Shown piece after piece: positions 4,652-61,705 of a stretch of 64,000 nucleotides of DNA. Below the pieces are notes generated by a model. The model worked only from the letters and a program-made list of their open reading frames with translations, made no database searches and had not been told where the DNA came from. Numbering within the stretch: the first letter of the stretch is position 1; each line of letters begins with the position of its first letter. The DNA is from Thermaerobacter subterraneus DSM 13965 (GTDB lineage: Bacteria; Bacillota; Sulfobacillia; Thermaerobacterales; Thermaerobacteraceae). The position numbers were made by a program, and so were the translations under genes. The stretch is from NCBI RefSeq assembly GCF_000183545.2, contig NZ_JH976535.1, forward strand, positions 1,169,890 through 1,233,889. Direction: 5' to 3'.

Positions 4652-5935
4652 ATGACCCCGGCCTTCTGGGCCCTGGCCGCGGGGCGGTTCATCAGCGCCC
4701 TGGGCGACGGCTTCTTCTTCCCCTTCATCGCCGTGTTCCTCCAGCGGGTCCACGGCCTTCCCCCGGAGCAGGTGGGGTTGATCATGAGCACGGCCGGGCT
4801 GTTTTCCCTGGCCGCCCGCATGCCGGCGGGCTGGCTGGCCGACCGGTTCGGCTTCAAGCCGGTGGTGGTGGCGGGGCTGGCAGGGGCCGGCGTGGCGGTG
4901 ATGCTGGCCGGCTGGGCGCCCGGGCCCTGGGCCTTCGCCTTCTGCTACGCACTGATGAGGGCCATGGTCTGGGGGTCCTTCCCGGCCCTGCTGCACGGTG
5001 CGGGACTGCTGGTCCCGCCGCGGCGCCGGGAGGAGGCCTACAGCATCATGAACCTGCTGTCCAACGCGGGGATCGCCATCGGGCCGGTGCTGGGCGGCTA
5101 CGTGGTGAACCGGGACATCCGGCTGATCTTTCTGATGGATGGGCTGTCTTTCCTTGCCTTTTCCGTCATCGTGGCCCGCTGGGTCCCGGCGCTGCGCGAG
5201 GGGACGGCAGGAGGCGGAGCCCGGCCGCGTCCTGCCGGCGGCGGTCCCGGGGCCGCCTTGCGCCGGGCACTGCAAGGGTTCCTGGCGTTCTTCCCGCCCC
5301 TTTCGCACACGGCCTTCTGGCAGCTGGCGGCCGGCGCTTTGATGATGAACCTGATCTACAGCCAGATGGGGTCGAACCTGCCCCTGGACCTGAACCGGCG
5401 CTTCGGCCCCGTGGACTGGTACGGCTGGCTGTGGACCCTCAACGGCACCATGATCGCCCTGCTGCAGTACCCTGCCACCCGCTGGCTGCAGCGGTACAGC
5501 CCGCGGCCGCGGCGGGTCGTGGCGGCCTTGCTCTATGCGGTGGCGGCCCTGCTGATCCTGGTGGCCAAGCCGGTGGGGCCGTTCCTGGCGGCCTTTGCGG
5601 TGTTGACCGTGGGGGAGATCATGTTCACCCCGCTGCTGCAGGCGGGCGTGGCCGCCATGGCGCCACCCGGTCAGGGCGGCCGGTACCAGGCGGCGGCCAG
5701 CCTGCTTTTCGGCATGGGCTGGACCCTGGGGCCGCTGGTGGGCGGGGTGCTGCTGGGCTCCGGGGGCCCGGGGCTCCTCTGGCCGGCCATGGCCGCCCTG
5801 GGCGTGCTCGCGGCGGCGGTGTTCGGCCTGGGTGCCCTGGGAGCGGGAGGCGGCGCCCGGCGTCCCCGGAGCACCAGCGGCCCGGCGCCGGCAGGCCGGG
5901 CGGCGGGCGGAGCCGGAGCCCCCGCCGCCCGGTGA
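4652..5935 (+). CDS. MFS transporter, 12-TM drug/solute exporter type
   Basis: A 427-residue hydrophobic protein of the major facilitator superfamily. Motif A is present after TM2 (GWLADRFGFKP), and two six-helix halves are separated by an Arg/Gly/Ala-rich loop around residues 180-205. The style resembles the MdtH/YfcJ-like multidrug branch; the substrate cannot be told. The ATG start is preceded by GGAGAGGAGA. It is transcribed away from korA, leaving a 263-bp divergent gap that contains a 13-bp tandem repeat (GAACGGGGCGCCG twice). The C-terminal 30 residues are Ala/Gly/Pro-rich and probably disordered. Confidence 0.85.
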   Translation: MTPAFWALAAGRFISALGDGFFFPFIAVFLQRVHGLPPEQVGLIMSTAGLFSLAARMPAGWLADRFGFKPVVVAGLAGAGVAVMLAGWAPGPWAFAFCYALMRAMVWGSFPALLHGAGLLVPPRRREEAYSIMNLLSNAGIAIGPVLGGYVVNRDIRLIFLMDGLSFLAFSVIVARWVPALREGTAGGGARPRPAGGGPGAALRRALQGFLAFFPPLSHTAFWQLAAGALMMNLIYSQMGSNLPLDLNRRFGPVDWYGWLWTLNGTMIALLQYPATRWLQRYSPRPRRVVAALLYAVAALLILVAKPVGPFLAAFAVLTVGEIMFTPLLQAGVAAMAPPGQGGRYQAAASLLFGMGWTLGPLVGGVLLGSGGPGLLWPAMAALGVLAAAVFGLGALGAGGGARRPRSTSGPAPAGRAAGGAGAPAAR

Positions 5936-6093
5936 CGCGCCCGGCTCGGCCCGCAGCTCCGCGAGGCCTCGCCCGGAGCACCCCGGAACCGGCGCCCCAA
6001 GGGGCATTGGCCCGGCCCCGGGCCCGGAGGCTTCGGGCCTTCCCCGGGCCGGTGCCACCCCCGTGCCACGGCCGGAAGGGCCGGTTCGTCCCG

Positions 6094-7131
6094 TCAACTC
6101 CCGGCCGCGTCCGACTCCAGGCTGGCCCGCATGGCCTGCCACGCCTGGCGGGCCTGCTCCACCGCCCCTTCATCCTCGATGGTCGAGATGTCGCCGGGGT
6201 CGCGGTCCAGCACCACCGCCTTCAGGACCCGCCGCATGATCTTGCCGCTGCGGGTCTTGGGCAGCAGGGGCACGAAGTGGAGGTCGCCGATGACGGCCAC
6301 GGGGCCCAGGTGGTGCCGGACGGTGGCGATGAGCTCGTCCCGCAGGGCGGCGGACGGCTCGTAGCCCCTCTTGAGGACGATGAAGGCGACGATCACCTCG
6401 CCCCGCACCGGGTCCGGGCGGGCCGTCACCCCCGCTTCGGCCACGGCCGGGTGGCGCAGGAAGGCCGTCTCCACCTCGATGGTGCCGATGCGGTGGCCGG
6501 CGATCTTGATGAGCTCGTCGCTGCGCCCGCTGAACCAGACGTAGCCGTCCTCGTCCATGGCGGCCGCATCGCCGGTGAAATACACGCCGGGGATGCTGCC
6601 CCAGTAATCGGAGGCGTACCGCTCGGGATCGCCCCACAGCTCGGCCGTCAGGCCGGGGAAGGGCCGGGTGATGACCAGCACGCCCTTCTCGCCAGGGGCG
6701 CAGGGTGCCCCTTCCGGCGTCCGCACCTCCACCTGGCGCCCCGGCAGGGCGATGCCGGCCGAGCCCGGCTTGATGGGCAGCAGGCCGATGCCGTAGGGAT
6801 TGCCGATCACCGGCGCCCCCGTTTCCGTCTGCCACCAGTGGTCGATGACGGGCACCCGCCCGCCGAAGACCTGGTTCTGCAACCAATCCCAGGCCGGCGG
6901 GTTGAGCACCTCTCCCGCGCAGAACACCCGCTCCACCGAACGCAGGTCGAACCGGCAGGCCGGTTCGGTGCCGTAGGCCATCAGCATCCGCACGGCGGTG
7001 GGCGCGGTGAAGATTCCCGTCACCCGGTTCTCCTCCAGGATCCGGTAGAAGGTCTCGGGTCCGGGGTAGTCCAGGGCGCCCTCGTAGGCGATGGTCGTGC
7101 ACCCCACCAGCAGCGGCGCGTAGACGATGTA
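6094..7131 (-). pseudogene. acsA: Acetyl-CoA synthetase (AMP-forming), 3' half, separated by transposon
   Basis: C-terminal 345 residues of an AMP-forming acetyl/propionyl-CoA synthetase. It begins at YIVYAPLLVG, contains WWQTETG (A5-type motif), YFTGDAA, the hinge and C-domain GRSDELIKIAGHRIGT, and the catalytic Lys motif TRSGKIMRRVLK near the end. The matching N-terminal half is at 8921-9835; together they make ~650 residues, the normal family length, so the transposon landed inside one intact gene. The piece has no start codon of its own at the correct place and is not expected to work alone. Confidence 0.9.
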
Positions 7132-7299: not shown

Positions 7300-8766
7300 C
7301 GACCTGGGGCGTCCTCGGAGGACCGCTCGTAAAGCCGGTGCGCCCGCTTGCCGCGCACCGACGGGGCGATGCGCCGCCAATCGCTCCAGACGTGCCGCCC
7401 TCGATTCCTCGCGGGTAGAGGGCGGGCGGTTCCGGAGCGCAAGCGCTCGCCCAAACCAAGGCCCCGGCGGGCAATCGCCACCGCCGCGGCGGCGTGGGGC
7501 GACAGTCCGTACCGGGCCATAAACTTGACCTTGCCAATCACGCTGGTGAAGGCCGGGTTGACCCGGATCACTTCCACGCCTTCCCGGGCGGCCCGGGAGA
7601 GCAGCAGGGTCATGAACGCGCCGTAGGCAAAGGCGGACAGCATCCGGGCGTACCGATCGCCCTCTTCTCGAAGACGAGCCTTCTTCTCCCGAAAATCCAG
7701 CCGCTCAACGACGATGGGCTTGCCGGCGCCCTTTGCCCATGCCACCAGGTCCGCCACCACCTCGCCCAGGATGGCCTTCACCTGCCTCCCGGCGTTTGCC
7801 TTGAATCTGAAACCGGATGTCGCGAGCCGCCACGGGGTTGCCGAAGCGGTCGACCTCCGCCACGGCCAGCCGGTCGGGATTCAGATCCGCGCCAAGGGCG
7901 CCAGCCCTCCGCGAGGTGGTGATCGGAGCCGCGGGCCGTTCGGTGGTGGCGAAGACATACCACGCGCCGTTTTGCCGGACGAACCGATAGCTGATGGCTT
8001 GCCCGGACGCAAGGGCCGCCAGGATGACATCCTGTCCATGGGGGAAGCGGATGCCGTGTAGCCAAACATGCCGCCCAAAGCGGCCGGCCAGGGCGTTGGG
8101 CACCCGAAGGCGCAAGCTGTCGCCAAAGAGCGAGCACGTTTGGTTGCCGCTCATCTCGTCTTTGGAGCCGATGCAGAAGAAGCCTTGGCTTCGGGCATCG
8201 CGCCATGCCTTGCGCCATTCGTCGTGGGAAGCCAAGCCGTTCTCTGCAAGGTGGAACTGCCGGTGAAACAAACGCCGTGAGCCAAAGCAAATCGGCGGCA
8301 ATCCCGTCCGGGCTTTTGCCGTTTCAAGGCGGGCGCGAAGCATCGCCAGCCGTCGCTTCTTCTGGTGCAGCCGAAAGCGGATCCGGCGCCGGCGCTCCGC
8401 CCGATCTTCGGGCGAAAGGGCAGCCCAGCGCCCCTTCCCCGCTGCCAAAGCTTTCTCCTGCTTGTGGAGCTTGGCAATCGCTCGTTCCGTGGCTTGAATC
8501 TGGCCGCGCAGGTTGGCCTGATGGTGCCGAAGACTTTCCTCCGCCGCCTTCACCTTGGCCTGGAGTTCGGTGGCCAGCGCGTTGAAGTGGCGGGCTGTGA
8601 TGCCGTAGCGGGCAATGTATTCCCGCTTGCATTCGACAAGGGAACGCTTCCGCACATAGACATCGACAAACAACCGGCGCAGCAGGCGACCGTACAGGGC
8701 GGCGATGGCGTCCAGCACGGGATAAACAGACGGGTCTTGAATCTTTGTCTGAAAGGTCGCCTGCAT
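7300..8766 (-). pseudogene. tnpB: TnpB-related RNA-guided nuclease / accessory protein, frameshifted
   Basis: The start at 8766 is placed on an ATG downstream of AAAGGAGG. The N-terminal half is Lys/Arg/Gln-rich and coiled. RuvC-I is GALGADLNPDRLAV. Near 7790 the frame changes (expected GKNAGRQVKAILGEVV; the first frame instead runs into Gly/Arg-rich sequence), and the second frame continues with RuvC-II (IVVERLDFREKK) and VNPAFTSVIGKVKF, ending similarity near 7300. The shift equals one extra or two missing bases. The C-terminal part lacks the Cys-x2-Cys zinc finger and the usual D-x2-N-A RuvC-III motif of classical TnpB, as in the group named TnpB-related accessory proteins. It could be inactive, or the indel could be a sequencing error. 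Confidence 0.8.
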
Positions 8767-15123: not shown

Positions 15124-17467
15124 GATGACCACCCGTTCCTTCGGCCTGCCGGTTCCGCGCAACGAGGACCCCCGCCTGCTGACCGGCCGGGGCCTGTTCG
15201 TCGATGACGTCCACCTGCCGGGCATGCTGCACGCGGCCGTCCTGCGCAGCCCCCACGCCCACGCCCGGATCCTCCGCATCGACACCTCCCGGGCCTGGGC
15301 CCTGCCCGGCGTCCATGCCGTGTGGACGAACCAGGACCTGGGGCCTTTGGCCGGGCCCCTGCCCCTGTTGATCCCTCATCCCACCCTGCGGGCCCGGACC
15401 CAGTACGCCCTGGCGCCGGGGGTGGTCCGCCACGTGGGGGAGCCGGTGGCCCTGGTGGTGGCGGAGAGCCGGTACCTGGCCGAGGATGCCCTTGATCTGA
15501 TCGAAGTCGAATACGAGCCCCTGCCGGCCGTGGTGGACCTGGAGGAGGCCACGCGGCCCGGTGCCCCGCTGATCTACCCGGAACTGGGGGACAACATCGC
15601 CGCCCACTACGTGCAGGAACGCGGCGACTTCGCCGCCGCCATCCGCCGGGCGCCCCACGTGATCCGGGCGCGCTTCTCCCTGGAGCGGGGGGCCGCCTCC
15701 CCCATGGAAACCCGGGGGGTGGTGGCCCACTTCGATCGCCAGGAAGGCAGCCTGACGGTGTGGGACTCCACCCAGGCCCCCATCCCCATCCGCAACGGGC
15801 TGGCGGAGATGCTGGGCCTGCCCCAGCAGCGGGTGCGGGTGGTGGCCCCCGACGTGGGGGGCGGCTTCGGCTGCAAGGTGATGATGTTCTACCCCGAAGA
15901 GGTGCTGATCCCCTGGGCGGCCATGCGCCTGGGCCGGCCCGTGAAGTGGATCGAGGACCGGCGGGAGCACTTCGTGGCCACCAACCACGAGCGGCTGCAG
16001 ATCCACGACGTGGAGGTGGGGTTCGACGACCAGGGCCGCATCCTGGCCCTCCAGACCGTGTTCCTCCACGACTGCGGCGCCTACACCGCCTACGGCCTGA
16101 TCATCCCCATCGTGGCCGAGTGCACCCTGCCGGGGCCGTACAAGATCCCCCACTACCGGGCCGAGTTCAAGGCGGTGTACACCAACAAGACCCAGACCAG
16201 CCCCTACCGCGGGGCGGGGCGGCCCCACGGGGTCTTCGTCATGGAGCGGGTGATCAAGCGCATCGCCGAGCACCTGGGCCTCGATCCCAACGAGGTGCGG
16301 CGGCGGAACTTCATCCAGCCCCACGAGTTCCCCTACGATGTGGGCCTGATCTACCAGGACAACGCGCCCCTGGTCTACGACAGCGGCAACTACCCCGCGG
16401 TGCTGGAGAAGTGCCTGGAGCTCATCGAGTACGACCAGTGGCCCGCCCGGAAGCGGCAGTTCCAGGCCGAGGGCCGCTACGTGGGCCTGGGCGTGGCCTT
16501 CTACGTGGAGGGGACGGGGATCGGCCCCTACGAGGGCGCCCGGGTGACGGTGGAACCCAGCGGCAAGGTCTTCGTGGCCACGGGCGTGGGCACCCAGGGC
16601 CAGAGCCACGCCACCACCTTTGCCCAGATCGTGGCCGACCAGTTGGGGGTCGACCCGTCGGACGTCACCGTGGTGACCGGCGATACGGCCCTGTTCGGCT
16701 GGGGCACGGGGACCTTCGCCAGCCGTGGGGCGGTGGTGGCGGGGAACGCCTGTTACAATGCGGCGGTCAAGGTTCGGGAGAAGGCCCTCCAGGTGGCGGC
16801 TGGGCTTCTGGAATGCCGGCCGGAAGACCTGGAGCTGGCGGAGGGGAAGGTGCGGGTCAAGGGGGCGCCCCAGCGGGCCGTGGCCCTGGGGGACGTGGCC
16901 CGGGCCGCCAACCCCCTGCGGGGGACCATCCCGGAGGAGTGGGAGGGGCCCGGTCTGGAAGCCTCCGGCTACTTCGCTCCACCCCGGGGTACTTTTGCCG
17001 CCGGTTGCCACGCGGCGCTGGTGGAGGTCGATCCGGAAACGGGCATGGCCCGCTTCCTGCGTTACGTGGTGGTCCACGACTGCGGGAAGGTGATCAACCC
17101 CCTTGTCCTGGACGGGCAGATCCACGGGGGCGTCGCCCAGGGCATCGGCGGCTGCTTCTACGAGCGGCTCGTGTACGACGAGCACGGCCAGCTGCTCAAC
17201 GCCTCCTTCATGGACTATCTCCTGCCCACGGCGGCCGAGATCCCGCCCATCGAGACGGCCCACGTCGAGACGCCCTCGCCCTTGAACCCCCTGGGCATCA
17301 AGGGCGCGGGGGAGGCGGGGGTGATCCCCGTGCCGGCCCTGTTCGCCGACGCCATTGAAGATGCTCTGAAGCCCTTCGGCATCCGGGTCGACCACATGCC
17401 CATCGACCCCAACTGGCTAGCGGAGCGGATCCGGGAGGCGCGGGTACGGGTGCAGGAGGCCGGTTGA
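15124..17467 (+). CDS. Molybdenum hydroxylase, molybdopterin-binding large subunit (CoxL form II / xanthine dehydrogenase-like)
   Basis: A 780-residue catalytic subunit. The two-part aldehyde oxidase/xanthine dehydrogenase fold is complete, with GGGFGCKVMMFYPEE, the active-site loop PYRGAGRPHG and the C-terminal GIKGAGEAGV bearing the base-catalytic Glu. The loop is of the YRGAGR type (so-called form II), not the AYxCSFR of true CO dehydrogenases, so a purine, aldehyde or other N-heterocycle is the likelier substrate. The position between a PucR regulator and nucleobase genes favours purine or ureide oxidation (inference). The ATG at 15124 has GGAGGGCGCC upstream. A substrate assay would be needed to name it. 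Confidence 0.88.
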
Positions 17468-51735: not shown

Positions 51736-53187
51736 GTGGCTAGCGACGGGGGAAGGGAACGAAACGACATGAAGGCCATGGCCGAAGGCCAGTGGCGCCC
51801 GCCGGCCGTAGCGGTGATGGTGGCGGGGGAAGCCGCCGGCACCAAGGTGCCCGGCGAGCGGAGCCTGCCCGAGGTCCACGGCAGTATTGCCATCCCCCGT
51901 GGGCACGGGCGATGGGCGGCGGTTCGCAAGTTCCTTGCCTACGCCGGCCCGGGCTTCCTGGTGGCGGTCGGCTACATGGACCCGGGAAACTGGGCGACGT
52001 CCCTTGCCGCCGGTTCGGCTTACGGTTACGCTCTCCTCTCCGTGGTGCTGATATCCAGCCTCATGGCCATGTTTCTCCAAGCCCTTTGCGCCCGCCTGGG
52101 CATCGCCACCGGCCTTGACCTCGCCCAGGCCTGCCGCGTGCGCTACCCGCGGCGAACCAGCTTCCTGCTCTGGGTGCTGGCCGAGCTGGCCATTGCCGCC
52201 ACGGACCTGGCCGAAGTAGTCGGCACGGCCATCGCCCTCAACCTGTTGTTCGGCCTCCCCCTGCTCCTCGGCGTGATCTTGACGGCTCTCGACGTGGTCC
52301 TGATCCTTTTCCTCCAACACCGCGGCTTCCGTTACGTGGAGGCGCTGGTGGTGTCGCTGATCGCCATCATCATGGGCAGTTTCTTCCTCAACCTGCTCTA
52401 TGCTTCCCCGGCCCTGGGGCCCATCGTGGCGGGCCTCATCCCGACGGGGCGGCTCGTGCTGGAGCCGGAGATGCTCTACCTGGCGCTGGGTATCCTCGGC
52501 GCCACGGTGATGCCGCACAACCTGTACCTGCACTCGAGCATCGTTCAGACGCGCGCTTACGGCTCCGACGAGCGGGACAAGCGGGAGGCCATTCGCTACG
52601 CTACCGCGGACTCCACCATCGCCCTCGGTATCGCCTTCTTCGTCAACGCCGCGATCCTCGTGCTGTCCGCCGCCACCTTCCACACCCGCGGCTTCACACA
52701 GGTAGCGGAGATCCAGGAAGCCTACCGGCTGCTGAGCCCGTTGCTCGGGGTCCAGGCGGCAAGCCTCCTGTTCGCCGTGGCGCTCCTGGCCGCCGGCCAG
52801 AATTCCACGCTCACCGGCACGCTGGCCGGCCAGGTCGTGATGGAGGGATTCCTCCGCCTGCGCCTGCCGGCCTGGCTGCGGCGGCTGATCACGCGGCTGG
52901 TAGCCATCGTGCCCGCGGTCCTGGTGACGGCCCTCGCCGGCCCGTCCGCAACCGCGCAGCTGCTGATCCTCTCCCAGGTGATCCTGTCCCTGCAGCTCCC
53001 CTTCGCCGTGATCCCGCTGATGCAGTTCACCGGCGACCCGCGGCTCATGGGCCCCTTCGTCAACACCGGTTGGATGAAGGTCCTGGGCTGGGCCATCGCC
53101 TTGACGATCACGGGACTGAACGCGTTCCTCCTTTACCAGACGGTGGCGGGGCTCCTGGGTGGGTCCGGGGCGCCCATGGCGGGGTGA
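51736..53187 (+). CDS. mntH: Nramp-family divalent metal transporter
   Basis: A 483-residue Nramp (MntH) proton-coupled importer of Mn(II)/Fe(II). The metal-binding motifs are intact: [13 protein letters not shown] in TM1 and [16 protein letters not shown] in TM6, with [20 protein letters not shown] later. About 11 hydrophobic segments. The first ~65 residues are a cytoplasmic tail longer than in E. coli MntH. The GTG at 51736 has AAGGAG upstream. It is a single gene with an elaborate control region, and is followed by the CadC/CadA metal-export genes. Confidence 0.92.
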
Positions 53188-53257
53188 AAGGGGCCTTCCC
53201 CGGGTACGCGCCCGGTCGCCGGTGGTCGAACCGGGAGGGCGGAACGAGCGCCGGCGG

Positions 53258-53286
53258 TTGACATCCCCAGCGCCGGTCGCTAGTAT
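53258..53286 (+). promoter_or_regulatory. Promoter of the cadC-cadA operon
   Basis: TTGACA, 17 bp, TAGTAT: near-consensus. Downstream, CGATTA occurs twice (53293 and 53301) across the likely transcription start, a possible ArsR/CadC operator. The site lies 50 bp before cadC. Confidence 0.8.
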
Positions 53287-53335
53287 GGACGTCGATTAAA
53301 CGATTATGGAAGAATCAAATGAGGAGGGGCCGCCC

Positions 53336-53704
53336 GTGACAGCATCACGGCAGAGAGCCCGGAATGACGTGTGCGCGAGCTTCGACCCCAACGGCGAGCG
53401 CGTCGCCGCCCTGCGCGAGCGCCTCGTGGAAGTGGCGGGACTGTCGGAGTTGTTCCAGGCCCTGGCCGACGAGACGCGCACCAAGATCCTCTACCTGCTG
53501 GCGTCCGAGGAACTCTGCGTCTGCGACCTGGCGGCCATCCTCGACCTCTCCCTACCCGCCGTGTCCCACCACCTGCGCCTGCTCAAGACGATGCGGCTGG
53601 TCAAGTACCGGCGGGAGGGCAAGAACGTCTACTACTCCCTGGCCGACGAGCACGTCCTGCGGCTGATCCAGGTGGCCCAGGAGCACTACGAAGAAGAGCG
53701 CTAG
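53336..53704 (+). CDS. cadC: ArsR/SmtB-family metal-responsive repressor, CadC-like
   Basis: A 122-residue winged-helix repressor. ELCVCDLAAILDLSLPAVSH contains the CVC metal-site motif of CadC on helix alpha-3, followed by HHLRLLKTMRLVKYRREGKN and YYSLADEHVLRLIQVAQEH. CadC has two N-terminal Cys; only one is present here (NDVCASFDP), so the cadmium site may be altered. The GTG at 53336 follows GAGGAGGGG; an ATG at 53306 would lack a binding site. It lies 36 bp before cadA and very likely represses the operon until Cd(II), Zn(II) or Pb(II) binds. Confidence 0.9.
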   Translation: MTASRQRARNDVCASFDPNGERVAALRERLVEVAGLSELFQALADETRTKILYLLASEELCVCDLAAILDLSLPAVSHHLRLLKTMRLVKYRREGKNVYYSLADEHVLRLIQVAQEHYEEER

Positions 53705-53740
53705 CCCCCAAGGCGGGAAGGCGCGCCGGAGGGATTGCCG

Positions 53741-56047
53741 ATGAGCACGGACACACGGCGGGAGCCTCTGCACAGCTATGTCCTGGAGGGCATCGACTGC
53801 GCCAGCTGCGCGCAGCGGATCGAGGATGCCCTGCGCCGCGAGCCGGGGCTGGAAGACGCCACCGTCAGCTTCGCCACGGGGTCCGTCCTGCTTCCCCCGG
53901 CCCAGGTCGAGCGCGCCCGGCAGATCATCGCCCGCGTCGAACCCGGCGTCCGGCTCGTCACGCCGCGCCAAGACACGGGGGCTGCCGCCCGGGACGGGAC
54001 TCGTCAGGAGGGCGTTTTTCCCCACGGGACGAACCCGGCGCCGGATGCGGCGGTACATCCCACGGGAGAAACCGTGGGAAGGGCCGCCGGGAAGGCGGTG
54101 GCGCCGCGTTCGTCCGGCGAGGAAAGGACGGGCACGACGGGCCAGGCAGAGCGGCCGGCTGAAGAAGAGGAACATCACTCCACCTACCGCCGCCTGGCGG
54201 CCATCGGCCTGGCCACTTTGGCGTTCCTGGCAGCCACCTTCCTCCACCCACGGGTGGATGGTACGCCCCTCGCCCTGGCGGTGGACGCCGCGCTACTGGC
54301 CGTTTACTTGTGGGTCGGGCACGGCGTGATCGGGGCCGCCCTTCGCAACGCCCGGCGCGGGCAGCTTTTCGACGAGAACTTCCTGATGACCGTGGCCACC
54401 GCGGGCGCCATCGCCATCCACGAGCTGCCCGAGGCAGTGGCGGTCATGCTGTTCTACACCGTCGGCGAGTTCTTCCAGGACCTGGCCGTGCAGCGCTCCC
54501 GGCGCTCCATCCGGGCACTCATGGACCTCCGGCCCGACTACGCCCACGTGCGGCGGAACGGTGAAATCCTCCGCGTATCGCCCGAGGCGGTGGCCGTGGG
54601 CGAGGAAATCGTGGTCCGGCCCGGGGAGCGCATCCCCCTGGACGGCCAAGTGGTCGAAGGATCGTCCTTCGTGGACACCTCCGCCCTCACGGGAGAATCG
54701 GTGCCCCGGCGGGTGGAACCCGGCGACGAAGTGATGGCGGGCATGGTCAACACCCGAGGCCTGCTCACCGTGCGGGTCACCCGGCCCTTCGGCGAGTCGT
54801 CGGTGGCCAAGATCCTGCGGCTGGTGGAGACGGCGGCCGCGCGCAAGGCACCTACGGAGCGTTTCATCACGACCTTCTCGCGTTACTACACGCCGGCAGT
54901 CGTTGTGGCCGCCGCGGCGATCGCGGTCATCCCCCCGCTGGTGGTGCCCGGGGCGGAGTTCGGCGAGTGGGTCCGGCGCGCGCTGGTCCTGCTGGTGATC
55001 TCGTGTCCCTGCGCGCTGGTGGTGTCGATCCCGCTGGGCTACTTCGGCGGCCTCGGCGGCGCCTCGCGGCGGGGCGTGCTAGTCAAGGGGGCCAACTACC
55101 TGGACGCCCTGACGCGCCTGGACACCGTCGTTTGGGACAAGACGGGCACGCTGACGCGGGGCGTCTTCAAGGTGGTAGAGGTCACCCCCTACAACGGGTT
55201 CTCCCGCGGCCGGGTCCTGGAGCTGGCCGCCCACGCCGAGGCCTTCTCCAGCCACCCCATCGCCGCCTCCATCGCCGAGGCGTACGGCCAGAGCGTGGAC
55301 GAAGCGCGCGTGTCGGGCTACGAAGAGGTCGCGGGCCATGGCGTGCGCGCCCGTGTGGACGGGCAACTAGTCGTTGCCGGTAACGACCGGCTCCTGCACC
55401 GCGAGGGCATCCCTCACGAGACCTGCGAGGCCGAGGGCACGGTGGTCTACGTGGGAGTGGATGGCGCGCTGGCGGGGCGCATCGTCATCGCGGACGAGAT
55501 CAAGCCCGAGGCGGCGGCGGCCGTGCGCGCGCTGCGCGAACTGGGCGTCCGGCGCCAGGTCATGCTGACGGGGGACGACCGGTCCGTCGCCGAGAAGGTG
55601 GCCGCAACGCTGGACCTGGACGATGTGCACGCCAACCTGCTCCCCGAGGATAAGGTGGCGGCCGTAGAGCGGCTGGACGCCGAGCGGCGCCAAGAGGGGC
55701 GGCCCGGCGCCCTCGCCTTCGTCGGGGACGGCATTAACGACGCACCGGTGCTGACCCGGGCGGACATCGGCGTCGCCATGGGCGGCCTCGGCTCGGACGC
55801 GGCCATCGAGGCGGCCGACGTAGTGATCATGGACGACAGCCCGGCCAGGCTGGCGACGGCCGTGTCCGTGGCCCGGGCCACGCGCCGCATCGTGAAGCAG
55901 AACATCGCCTTCGCCCTCGGGGTCAAGCTGATTTTCGTGCTCCTAGGGGCCGCGGGAGTGGCCTCCATGTGGGAAGCGGTATTTGCCGACGTCGGCGTCT
56001 CCCTGCTGGCCATCCTCAACGCCACCCGCGTTCTCCGCGCGGGATAG
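53741..56047 (+). CDS. cadA: Cd(II)/Zn(II)/Pb(II)-exporting P1B-type ATPase
   Basis: A 768-residue heavy-metal ATPase. It has an N-terminal HMA domain with EGIDCASCAQRIE, a long charged linker (residues ~90-145), an actuator motif DTSALTGESVPRRVEPGD, the transmembrane SCPCALVVS, the phosphorylation site DKTGTLTRG, the SSHPIAASIAEA HP motif, GDGINDAPVLTRAD, and C-terminal membrane residues DVGVSLLAILNATR typical of the Zn/Cd/Pb (P1B-2) group. The ATG at 53741 follows GGAGGG. It detoxifies the cytoplasm and is controlled with cadC. Confidence 0.94.
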   Translation: MSTDTRREPLHSYVLEGIDCASCAQRIEDALRREPGLEDATVSFATGSVLLPPAQVERARQIIARVEPGVRLVTPRQDTGAAARDGTRQEGVFPHGTNPAPDAAVHPTGETVGRAAGKAVAPRSSGEERTGTTGQAERPAEEEEHHSTYRRLAAIGLATLAFLAATFLHPRVDGTPLALAVDAALLAVYLWVGHGVIGAALRNARRGQLFDENFLMTVATAGAIAIHELPEAVAVMLFYTVGEFFQDLAVQRSRRSIRALMDLRPDYAHVRRNGEILRVSPEAVAVGEEIVVRPGERIPLDGQVVEGSSFVDTSALTGESVPRRVEPGDEVMAGMVNTRGLLTVRVTRPFGESSVAKILRLVETAAARKAPTERFITTFSRYYTPAVVVAAAAIAVIPPLVVPGAEFGEWVRRALVLLVISCPCALVVSIPLGYFGGLGGASRRGVLVKGANYLDALTRLDTVVWDKTGTLTRGVFKVVEVTPYNGFSRGRVLELAAHAEAFSSHPIAASIAEAYGQSVDEARVSGYEEVAGHGVRARVDGQLVVAGNDRLLHREGIPHETCEAEGTVVYVGVDGALAGRIVIADEIKPEAAAAVRALRELGVRRQVMLTGDDRSVAEKVAATLDLDDVHANLLPEDKVAAVERLDAERRQEGRPGALAFVGDGINDAPVLTRADIGVAMGGLGSDAAIEAADVVIMDDSPARLATAVSVARATRRIVKQNIAFALGVKLIFVLLGAAGVASMWEAVFADVGVSLLAILNATRVLRAG

Positions 56048-59504: not shown

Positions 59505-59779
59505 GCGCGGGCACCTCTCCGTTGTCTTCTGCACGGATCTGTACGGACGGCCTGGGCTGCTTCTCAAAACGGACGCCATGTCAATTCGCGCCTATCCCCC
59601 GGGGGTATGGTCCTATGAACGTTCTTTGGATAGCCATCGGTGCCGTGCCCTACTGGACTTCGGATCTGGGCCCTATAGAGCGGGGAAAGCCACTAGCAAG
59701 TTGAAGGAAGCGCTGGCCGGCTAGCTGCGCCAGGTGTGAGTACCCACGGCCGGCACTGCACGCTGGAGGAGGACTATCC

Positions 59780-61117
59780 GTGCCTGAGGCCACCGCCCAT
59801 CGCGACGAATCGCGCGTCCCGGGGCACCAACGACCCGCGCGCCGGCTTCCCGTCGCCGTCTGGATCCTCTTGGTGGGGAGTTCCTGATCCAGGTCGGCAG
59901 TTACATGGTGGTTCCTTACCTGATGGTGCTGCTGCCCCAGAACCTGGCCGTCTCCACGCTCACCGCCGCGGCGCTCGTCTTTGTGGTCAAGTTCTCCGTT
60001 CAGGCCTCCAGTGTAATCGGCGGGCCGCTGGCCGACCGGCTCGGCACGCGCCGCATGCTGGTGCTGGGCCTGCTGCTGCGCGCCGCGGGCATGGCGGCCT
60101 TCGCCCTCACCCGTCATGTGGGCTGTCATTCGCGGCCAGCGCGGTGGCAGGCTTGGGCAGCGGGCTCTATGCACCCTCCACCCGCGGAGCCATCGGTTCC
60201 CTGACCCCTTCCCCGCTGCGCACCTATGCCGTTTCCCTGCGCGCGGTGGCCGCCAATCTGGGCATGGCCACCGCACCGTTGGCGTTCCTGGTGCTGGCCG
60301 CGGTGGACGTAGACCTCGTCTTCCTGGTATCGGCCGGCCTGTTCGCGGCCCTGGCCACCCACCGGGCCCTGCCGGAACTGCCGGCGCAGGCGTCGGTGTC
60401 GCTGCTCACCATCCTCAAGGAGGTGGCGCGGGACCGGCAGTGGCTGGCCTTCGGCGCACTGATCGCCCTGGCGTGGTCGCTGTACGGGCACCTGGACTCC
60501 AACGTGATGGTCTGGGCCAACGAGCGGGCCGGCCTGGGGGGCATGACCGCCGTGGCGGCGGGCTACGCGGTGCTGGTGGCCGTGCTGCAGATGCCTGTCA
60601 CCCGGTACGTGGCCACGCGCCTGCGGCACTGGGACGTGCTGACGGCGGGAACTGCCCTGACAGCAGCGGGGCTGCTGGCGGTCGGCATGGCCCGCAGCCC
60701 GGTGGGCGCTGCCGTGGCGGTGACCCTCTTCGCCCTGGGCGCGACGCTCCTCGTACCCGGGGCCGACCTGGTGACCAGCGACGTGGCTCCCCCGAAGCGG
60801 GTCAACACATACTTCGGCGCGGCCGGCTTGTTCTCCACCCTGGCGAGGCCAACAGCGCGCCCGTGGGCGCTGCCCTGCTGACCCGCTGGCCGGGAAGTCC
60901 CATGGCTTGGTTCCTCCTGGCCGGGATGGGGTTCGCCCTGGCGCTGGCGCTCCTGGGTGGTGGGCCGCAGTCTGGGGCAACAGGCGCCACGTTATTGACC
61001 TGCGAAGTCGAACCATGCCCATACCCCTTGAGGGGCAGGACGTGGCCGGGCAAGGCCAGCCCTTGCCCAAAGCGGGGCCATTGGGAGACAATACTCAAGG
61101 CCTGTCAGCGGTATTGA
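59780..61117 (+). pseudogene. MFS transporter with three single-base frameshifts
   Basis: A GTG with GGAGGAGGA upstream opens an MFS transporter whose 12-helix similarity runs through three frames. Shifts lie near 59882 (VWILLVGS to FLIQVGSYMVV), near 60118 (FALTRHVG to LSFAASAVAGLGSG) and near 60842 (GLFSTL to GEANSAPVGAALL). Each is explained by loss of one base. Motif A is GGPLADRLGTRRML. The style matches MdtH/YfcJ-like exporters. Either the gene is dead or the sequence has small errors; no large deletion is evident. Confidence 0.75.
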
Positions 61118-61210: not shown

Positions 61211-61705
61211 ATGGCTAGCCTTGTAAGAGGCTACGTGAGAGGACCGTTCTCGCGGTACCATTGCTGCCTTGCACTCGCCCTCGTGCTCGCGGCAGCACTG
61301 CTTGCAGCGTGTTCGGACGCGACGACGCCCTCCACCAGCGGCCTTATCGCGCGACCGGCTGAGAATCAGTGGCCCGAGGCCTTCTGGCAGGCCTCGCCGG
61401 ACGTGCAGGAAGCGTACCGCTTCGCGGTGACAAACCCGCGCGTACTTGAGTACATGCCCTGTTATTGTGGTTGCGGAAACCAGGGCCACACCTCCAACAA
61501 GGACTGCTACATCGACGAGGTTCGCCCCGACGGCTCGGTGGTGCTCGACCCGATGGGCTTTGGCTGAGGGGTTTGCGTCGGCATCGCGCGTGACGCGATG
61601 AAGCTGCACGGTAAGGGGAAATCCCTTCGCGAGATTCGCTCCTATATCGATGAGAAATATGGCCAGTTCGGACCGGGGACCCGCACCCCCCTCCCGCCCC
61701 TGTAG
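61211..61705 (+). CDS. PCYCGC-motif lipoprotein, candidate selenoprotein (in-frame UGA at 61565)
   Basis: A secreted lipoprotein (lipobox LLAAC) with the family motif MPCYCGCGNQGHTSNKDC. Translation reaches DPMGFG and meets TGA at 61565-61567. Beyond it, the same frame continues GVCVGIARDAMKLHGKGKSL and REIRSYIDEKYGQFGPG to a TAG at 61703, which is the normal family C-terminus. In relatives the UGA position is the first Cys of CGVC. Hence UGA may encode selenocysteine in a U-G-V-C redox motif; a SECIS-like hairpin follows. Otherwise it is a nonsense mutation truncating the protein after 118 residues. The ATG at 61211 follows GGGAGGTAA. The family often occurs with YtkA-like proteins, as here. 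Confidence 0.75.
61582..61600 (+). promoter_or_regulatory. SECIS-like hairpin downstream of the in-frame UGA
   Basis: CATCGCG-CGTGA-CGCGATG is a perfect 7-bp stem with a five-base loop containing GU. The loop begins 22 bases after the UGA, within the 16-37 base window of bacterial SECIS elements. Confidence 0.5.

Follow-up and report, generated by a model that had tools for sequence, protein, structure and literature searches.

The PCYCGC motif-containing lipoproteins of Bacillales belong to the Pfam family PF13798, and their function is given as unknown (PMC13068155). The same family appears in a 2026 review as the predicted selenoprotein family 'CYCXC / OS_HP4' (hypothetical protein OS_HP4) with the motif UxxC (PMC13188914), and that review gives Zhang & Gladyshev 2007 as its source for the family. 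The NCBIfam collection also holds a model for the family, NF041379, named 'CYCXC family (seleno)protein'. A PF13798 gene interrupted by an in-frame UGA is present at positions 61211..61705 of the forward strand of a 64,000-nucleotide stretch of the Thermaerobacter subterraneus DSM 13965 genome, referred to here as the window. An earlier note on this DNA took such a selenoprotein to be undescribed for the family, a claim that does not stand in the face of the published prediction and the NCBIfam model. When compared with NF041379, the window protein scores 70.7-71.5 bits over positions 13-89 of 90, below the cut-off of 90 bits, and the UGA members from Bacillota and Thermomicrobium that were tested all fall below 90 bits as well (56-80 bits). 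By sequence, the window protein is a member of a homologous branch lying outside the curated NF041379 equivalog. What appears to be new is the existence of a broad lipoprotein branch in Bacillota and Thermomicrobiota that the NF041379 cut-off misses.

The gene and its frame across the UGA

The gene follows directly on a likely Shine-Dalgarno sequence (GGGGAGG) and, if the UGA is read as selenocysteine (Sec), encodes a protein of 164 residues, MASL...PCYCGC...MGFG-U-GVC...PLPPL, whose frame is closed by a TAG at 61703-61705. The TGA seen earlier at 61565 is indeed in the frame of the PCYCGC lipoprotein gene (61565..61567) and corresponds to U119 of a U-G-V-C motif. Inspection by eye suggests that a hydrophobic stretch leads into a lipobox (LLAAC) with the predicted end of the signal peptide at C34 (61310..61312); a lipobox-like end is also present in most aligned homologues, while that of genome G058 apparently has a plain transmembrane anchor in its place. 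The PCYCGC motif spans P83-C88 (61457..61474), with C84, C86 and C88 forming invariant alignment columns, and C122, the putative resolving cysteine of the U-x2-C pair (61574..61576), is invariant too. The UGA is followed by 45 sense codons (61568..61702) that had been said to match the normal C-terminus of the family, and the PF13798 match to the readthrough protein bears this out, as it covers residues 52-162 and runs across the UGA (108.4 bits against a gathering cut-off of 25, E 4e-31).

Just 5' of the selenoprotein gene, an MFS transporter gene (59736-61018) is split over frames, with the N-terminal MFS match in 59905-60201 and the remainder in the 59736 frame. This gene is possibly a pseudogene, or its disruption possibly reflects sequencing errors.

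Conservation of the UGA and its downstream sequence

The UGA was verified at the identical codon in 27 homologues, namely in 26 Bacillota genomes and on one Thermomicrobium roseum plasmid; together with the window gene, these make up the set of 28 UGA genes used below. In a sample across the phylum, the PCYCGC family was present in 7 of 398 genomes, three of which carry a TGA, and in all three, as in a metagenome-assembled genome (MAG) of Bacillaceae, the UGA occupies the same codon. A profile (A2) built from these three genes, that of the MAG and that of the T. roseum plasmid was then used to search the order to which genome G385 belongs, which returned many further UGA members; all 24 genomes read in that order, G385 included, have the UGA at the aligned site, and they represent the verified carriers among 397 genomes sampled. 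The 27 homologues thus consist of these 24 together with T. roseum, the Bacillaceae MAG and G058, whose class was sampled through one genome. The comparison of homologues suggested by the earlier note gives a clear pattern, since every aligned member that lacks the UGA has Cys at the site (48 genes), and Trp was found at the Sec site in none of the aligned homologues. A scan of viral contigs returned no PCYCGC homologue. On the tree, the UGA forms cluster and the state of the site changes twice, which would allow for a single origin.

Both forms occur together in single genomes (G447, loci L102 and L060; G682), so the UGA and Cys forms may differ in role. In addition, genome G669 (L120) carries two UGA-containing PCYCGC genes (5781-6259 and 15552-16040) that are 9.8 kb apart and lie near genes for a multicopper-oxidase-like protein and a ZIP-like transporter.

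A hairpin with a GU-bearing loop had been placed 22 bases past the UGA, and it is present. The stem pairs AUCGCG (61583-61588) with CGCGAU (61594-61599) and is brought to 7 bp by one more C-G pair; it encloses the loop CGUGA (61589-61593), which starts 22 nt 3' of the UGA. This bacterial SECIS hairpin lies within the coding sequence at 61583..61599. A hairpin of at least 6 bp with a GU loop arises in that zone in 1.4% of codon shuffles and in 2.5% of synonymous recodings; the evidence from the single sequence is modest, and with the comparative evidence it becomes decisive. Indeed, in the alignment built for this study, the five core positions are fully paired in 28/28 UGA genes and in 0/48 Cys genes (Fisher p = 2e-21, a value that overstates independence as the genes compared are related), and most of the 28 share the loop CGUGA. 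Compensatory changes are found at three pairs (columns 21-33, AU/CG; 22-32, GC/AU; 24-30, CG/GC), among them a switch between C-G and G-C whose GAG (E) and GAC (D) codons track the opposite arm. The covariation score was reached by none of 500 shuffles, slid controls were near zero, and RNAalifold recovers the same helix unaided. The stem contains an Ile codon, which takes the form ATA in 24 of the 28 UGA genes versus 3 of the 48 Cys genes (p = 1e-12). An Rfam scan of the gene region gave nothing relevant.

These comparisons bear on two other readings of the UGA. A sequencing or assembly error that hides a true TGC or TGT would be in keeping with the frameshifted MFS gene next door, which allows for regional errors. 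However, independent genomes share both the UGA codon and the SECIS, the Cys forms lack the SECIS, and the presence of the UGA at the same site in homologues argues against an error at 61565; with 27 homologues, errors in the MFS region become irrelevant to the UGA, and this reading, whose probability is close to negligible, was rejected. That the UGA is decoded not as Sec but, for instance, as Trp or through near-cognate suppression is very improbable, and no support for this was found. Cys at the site in all the non-UGA homologues is what would be expected of a Cys/Sec pair, Trp never occurs there in the alignment, and the hairpin is confined to the UGA forms; on these grounds the Trp-type reading was rejected as well.

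The codons beyond the UGA, read as coding for the C-terminus of a selenoprotein, show no sign of decay in pairs of homologues. Same-clade UGA pairs with unsaturated dS gave a dN/dS of 0.03-0.25 after the UGA and of 0.01-0.09 before it, some of the former ratios being inflated as the SECIS also restrains synonymous substitution in this short portion of the gene. When the window gene was compared with T. roseum and with G058, dN/dS was 0.22-0.32 on both sides of the UGA, with 0.28-0.32 for the part after it. By this measure, the 45 codons are under purifying selection of about the same strength as the part before the UGA. The earlier note had envisaged a comparison of sister strains for decayed sequence; the result comes instead from homologue pairs, as the gene is absent from the genus-mates.

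Sec machinery and acquisition of the gene

A genuine UGA-encoded Sec requires the means to decode it, and the four components proposed for a search, selA, selB, selD and the Sec tRNA, are all present in the window genome (2.89 Mb, 99.96% complete). The tRNA-Sec with anticodon UCA scores 82.8 bits, selA 577 bits, selB 349.6 bits summed, above its cut-off, and selD 401 bits. The selD gene has its own in-frame UGA, in GKAGUGCK, and is thus an internal positive control for the decoding of UGA as Sec in this genome. Every one of the 11 UGA genomes tested for selD has that gene, all 4 tested for selA have selA, and selA was absent over the cut-off from 6 of the 10 genomes examined with the Cys form; selD was not found on the T. 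roseum plasmid, for which the plasmid sequence was searched.

One rival holds that the UGA truly terminates translation or arose recently as a nonsense mutation, leaving a pseudogene or a truncated protein of 118 residues. RefSeq does end the T. roseum homologue at the UGA, and in the window the adjacent MFS gene shows disruption. On the other hand, the UGA is kept at one codon in 28 genes from several Bacillota families and a Thermomicrobium, selection is purifying past it, the SECIS covaries and the Sec machinery is present. The pseudogene reading, for which there is only a slight chance, was rejected on account of the conserved UGA, SECIS, selection and machinery, and is refuted as far as sequence allows. 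Collectively, the machinery, the UGA at the same site in 27 homologues, the SECIS and the purifying selection strongly support the proposal that Sec replaces the first Cys of a C-x2-C motif, and 61211-61705 is almost certainly a genuine selenoprotein gene with UGA 61565 as its Sec codon.

In T. roseum, the RefSeq product WP_012642643.1, 'PCYCGC motif-containing (lipo)protein' (plasmid NC_011961.1; locus L085, 7908-8225), ends at the Sec UGA, and its frame, when read through, runs to a second stop at 8361-8363 of the locus. UGA genes of this branch are therefore liable to truncated annotation, as in this case.

The selenoprotein gene was probably acquired horizontally within the genus, since it is missing from three genus-mates that have selA and its GC content is lower than that of the window (63% versus 71%). 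This suggests that a thermophile genus which retained Sec decoding gained the gene with its UGA intact.

Possible functions and relation to known systems

According to the established bacterial pathway, SelA would form the Sec-tRNA(UCA), and SelB would bind the hairpin at 61583-61599 and deliver this tRNA to yield the full-length protein of 164 residues, which would be exported and held by a lipid anchor at C34. In the extracytoplasmic domain of the mature protein, the invariant cysteines C84, C86, C88 and C99 might come together with H93 and U119-x2-C122 as one thiol/selenol site, located perhaps where a long helix begins. The reacting nucleophile could then be the selenolate, which C122 would resolve as a selenenylsulfide. 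Such a lipoprotein may have a role in handling redox or soft metals of the Cd/Zn/Cu/Hg type.

The gene neighbourhood offers a first indication in this respect. In G385 and G814, genes for a heavy-metal P-type ATPase and for an ArsR regulator lie divergent from the UGA gene, which in G385 has Nramp on its opposite flank. In G621 the UGA gene stands beside genes for a CsoR-like regulator and a Cu-type ATPase, and the G593 locus includes a multicopper oxidase and an ATPase. In the window, Nramp, an ArsR-type regulator and a Cd-type P-type ATPase form a cluster at 52042-56047, 5-9 kb upstream of the selenoprotein gene, and these are the same kinds of gene that flank the G385 homologue. The metal context is a lead to function and not proof, as several other UGA loci (e.g., L124, L125 and L127) have no metal genes nearby and the related G385 and G814 do not provide independent contexts.

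The AlphaFold model is confident (pLDDT 87) and predicts a mostly helical protein in which the U-x2-C pair starts a long helix; its two best Foldseek matches are the CcmH domains 2hl7 and 2kw0, at Z 5.0 and 4.9, the noise level for a helical bundle, and E 0.85. With hhalign, the helix 2-3 stretch GKSLREIRSYIDEKYG was aligned with CcmH GKSKKEIVDYMVARYG, with an E of 5e-4 for one pair at a probability of 32%. These matches, together with the cytochrome bd genes downstream in the window, would fit a CcmH-like thiol-disulfide oxidoreductase in place of a metal-handling protein, with extracytoplasmic substrates such as the thiols of apocytochrome or of copper sites. Against this, the hhalign match covers 31 columns of helix 2-3 only and leaves the CxxC motifs unaligned, Pfam CcmH has no match to the window protein, and the recurrent neighbours are metal genes and not ccm genes; a sequence search of solved structures gave chance-level matches only. 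As homology, the likeness to CcmH is not significant, and the oxidoreductase function is rather unlikely. An extracytoplasmic function in soft-metal or redox handling, a fair way from assured and yet quite conceivable, is ranked first, with the CcmH-like oxidoreductase as its chief rival. The more specific proposal that the UGA branch is an extracytoplasmic selenol-based soft-metal scavenger, or a metal-site redox factor, partnering P1B-type metal exporters is speculative and, taken as a whole, unlikely.

With its covarying SECIS, selection and machinery, this branch gives strong sequence-level support to a selenoprotein family that has so far been a prediction in the literature. It is common in one Bacillota order and occurs in heat-loving and soil bacteria. 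The recurrent pairing with metal exporters provides a testable first functional idea for PF13798; if partnership with P1B-type exporters were true, it would amount to a selenium-dependent arm of metal homeostasis.

Four known systems can be set beside the window protein. SelD of the same genome likewise has an in-frame UGA and a downstream hairpin, but it is an unrelated protein and its stem-loop has another sequence. The CcmH periplasmic domain (2hl7, 2kw0) shares the three-helix arrangement and, weakly, the GKS..EI..Y...RYG motif of helix 2-3, whereas it has a single LRCxxC, no PCYCGC and no Cys/His insert. The Cys PCYCGC lipoproteins of Bacillales (Sporosarcina; Parageobacillus AOT13_14730) are 32-45% identical to the window protein and share with it the predicted lipobox, PCYCGC, H93, C99 and C-x2-C spacing; they differ in that the Sec site is occupied by Cys and the hairpin is missing, and many of them read TRCxVC where the UGA forms have MGxGUGxC. 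Finally, CYCXC/OS_HP4 shares with the window protein the Pfam family, the UxxC motif and a Sec predicted from Cys/UGA pairing, while its original case, compared here through the model and the description available for it, comes from a delta-proteobacterial worm symbiont; we infer that the Sec of its UxxC and that of U119-G-V-C122 share one column.
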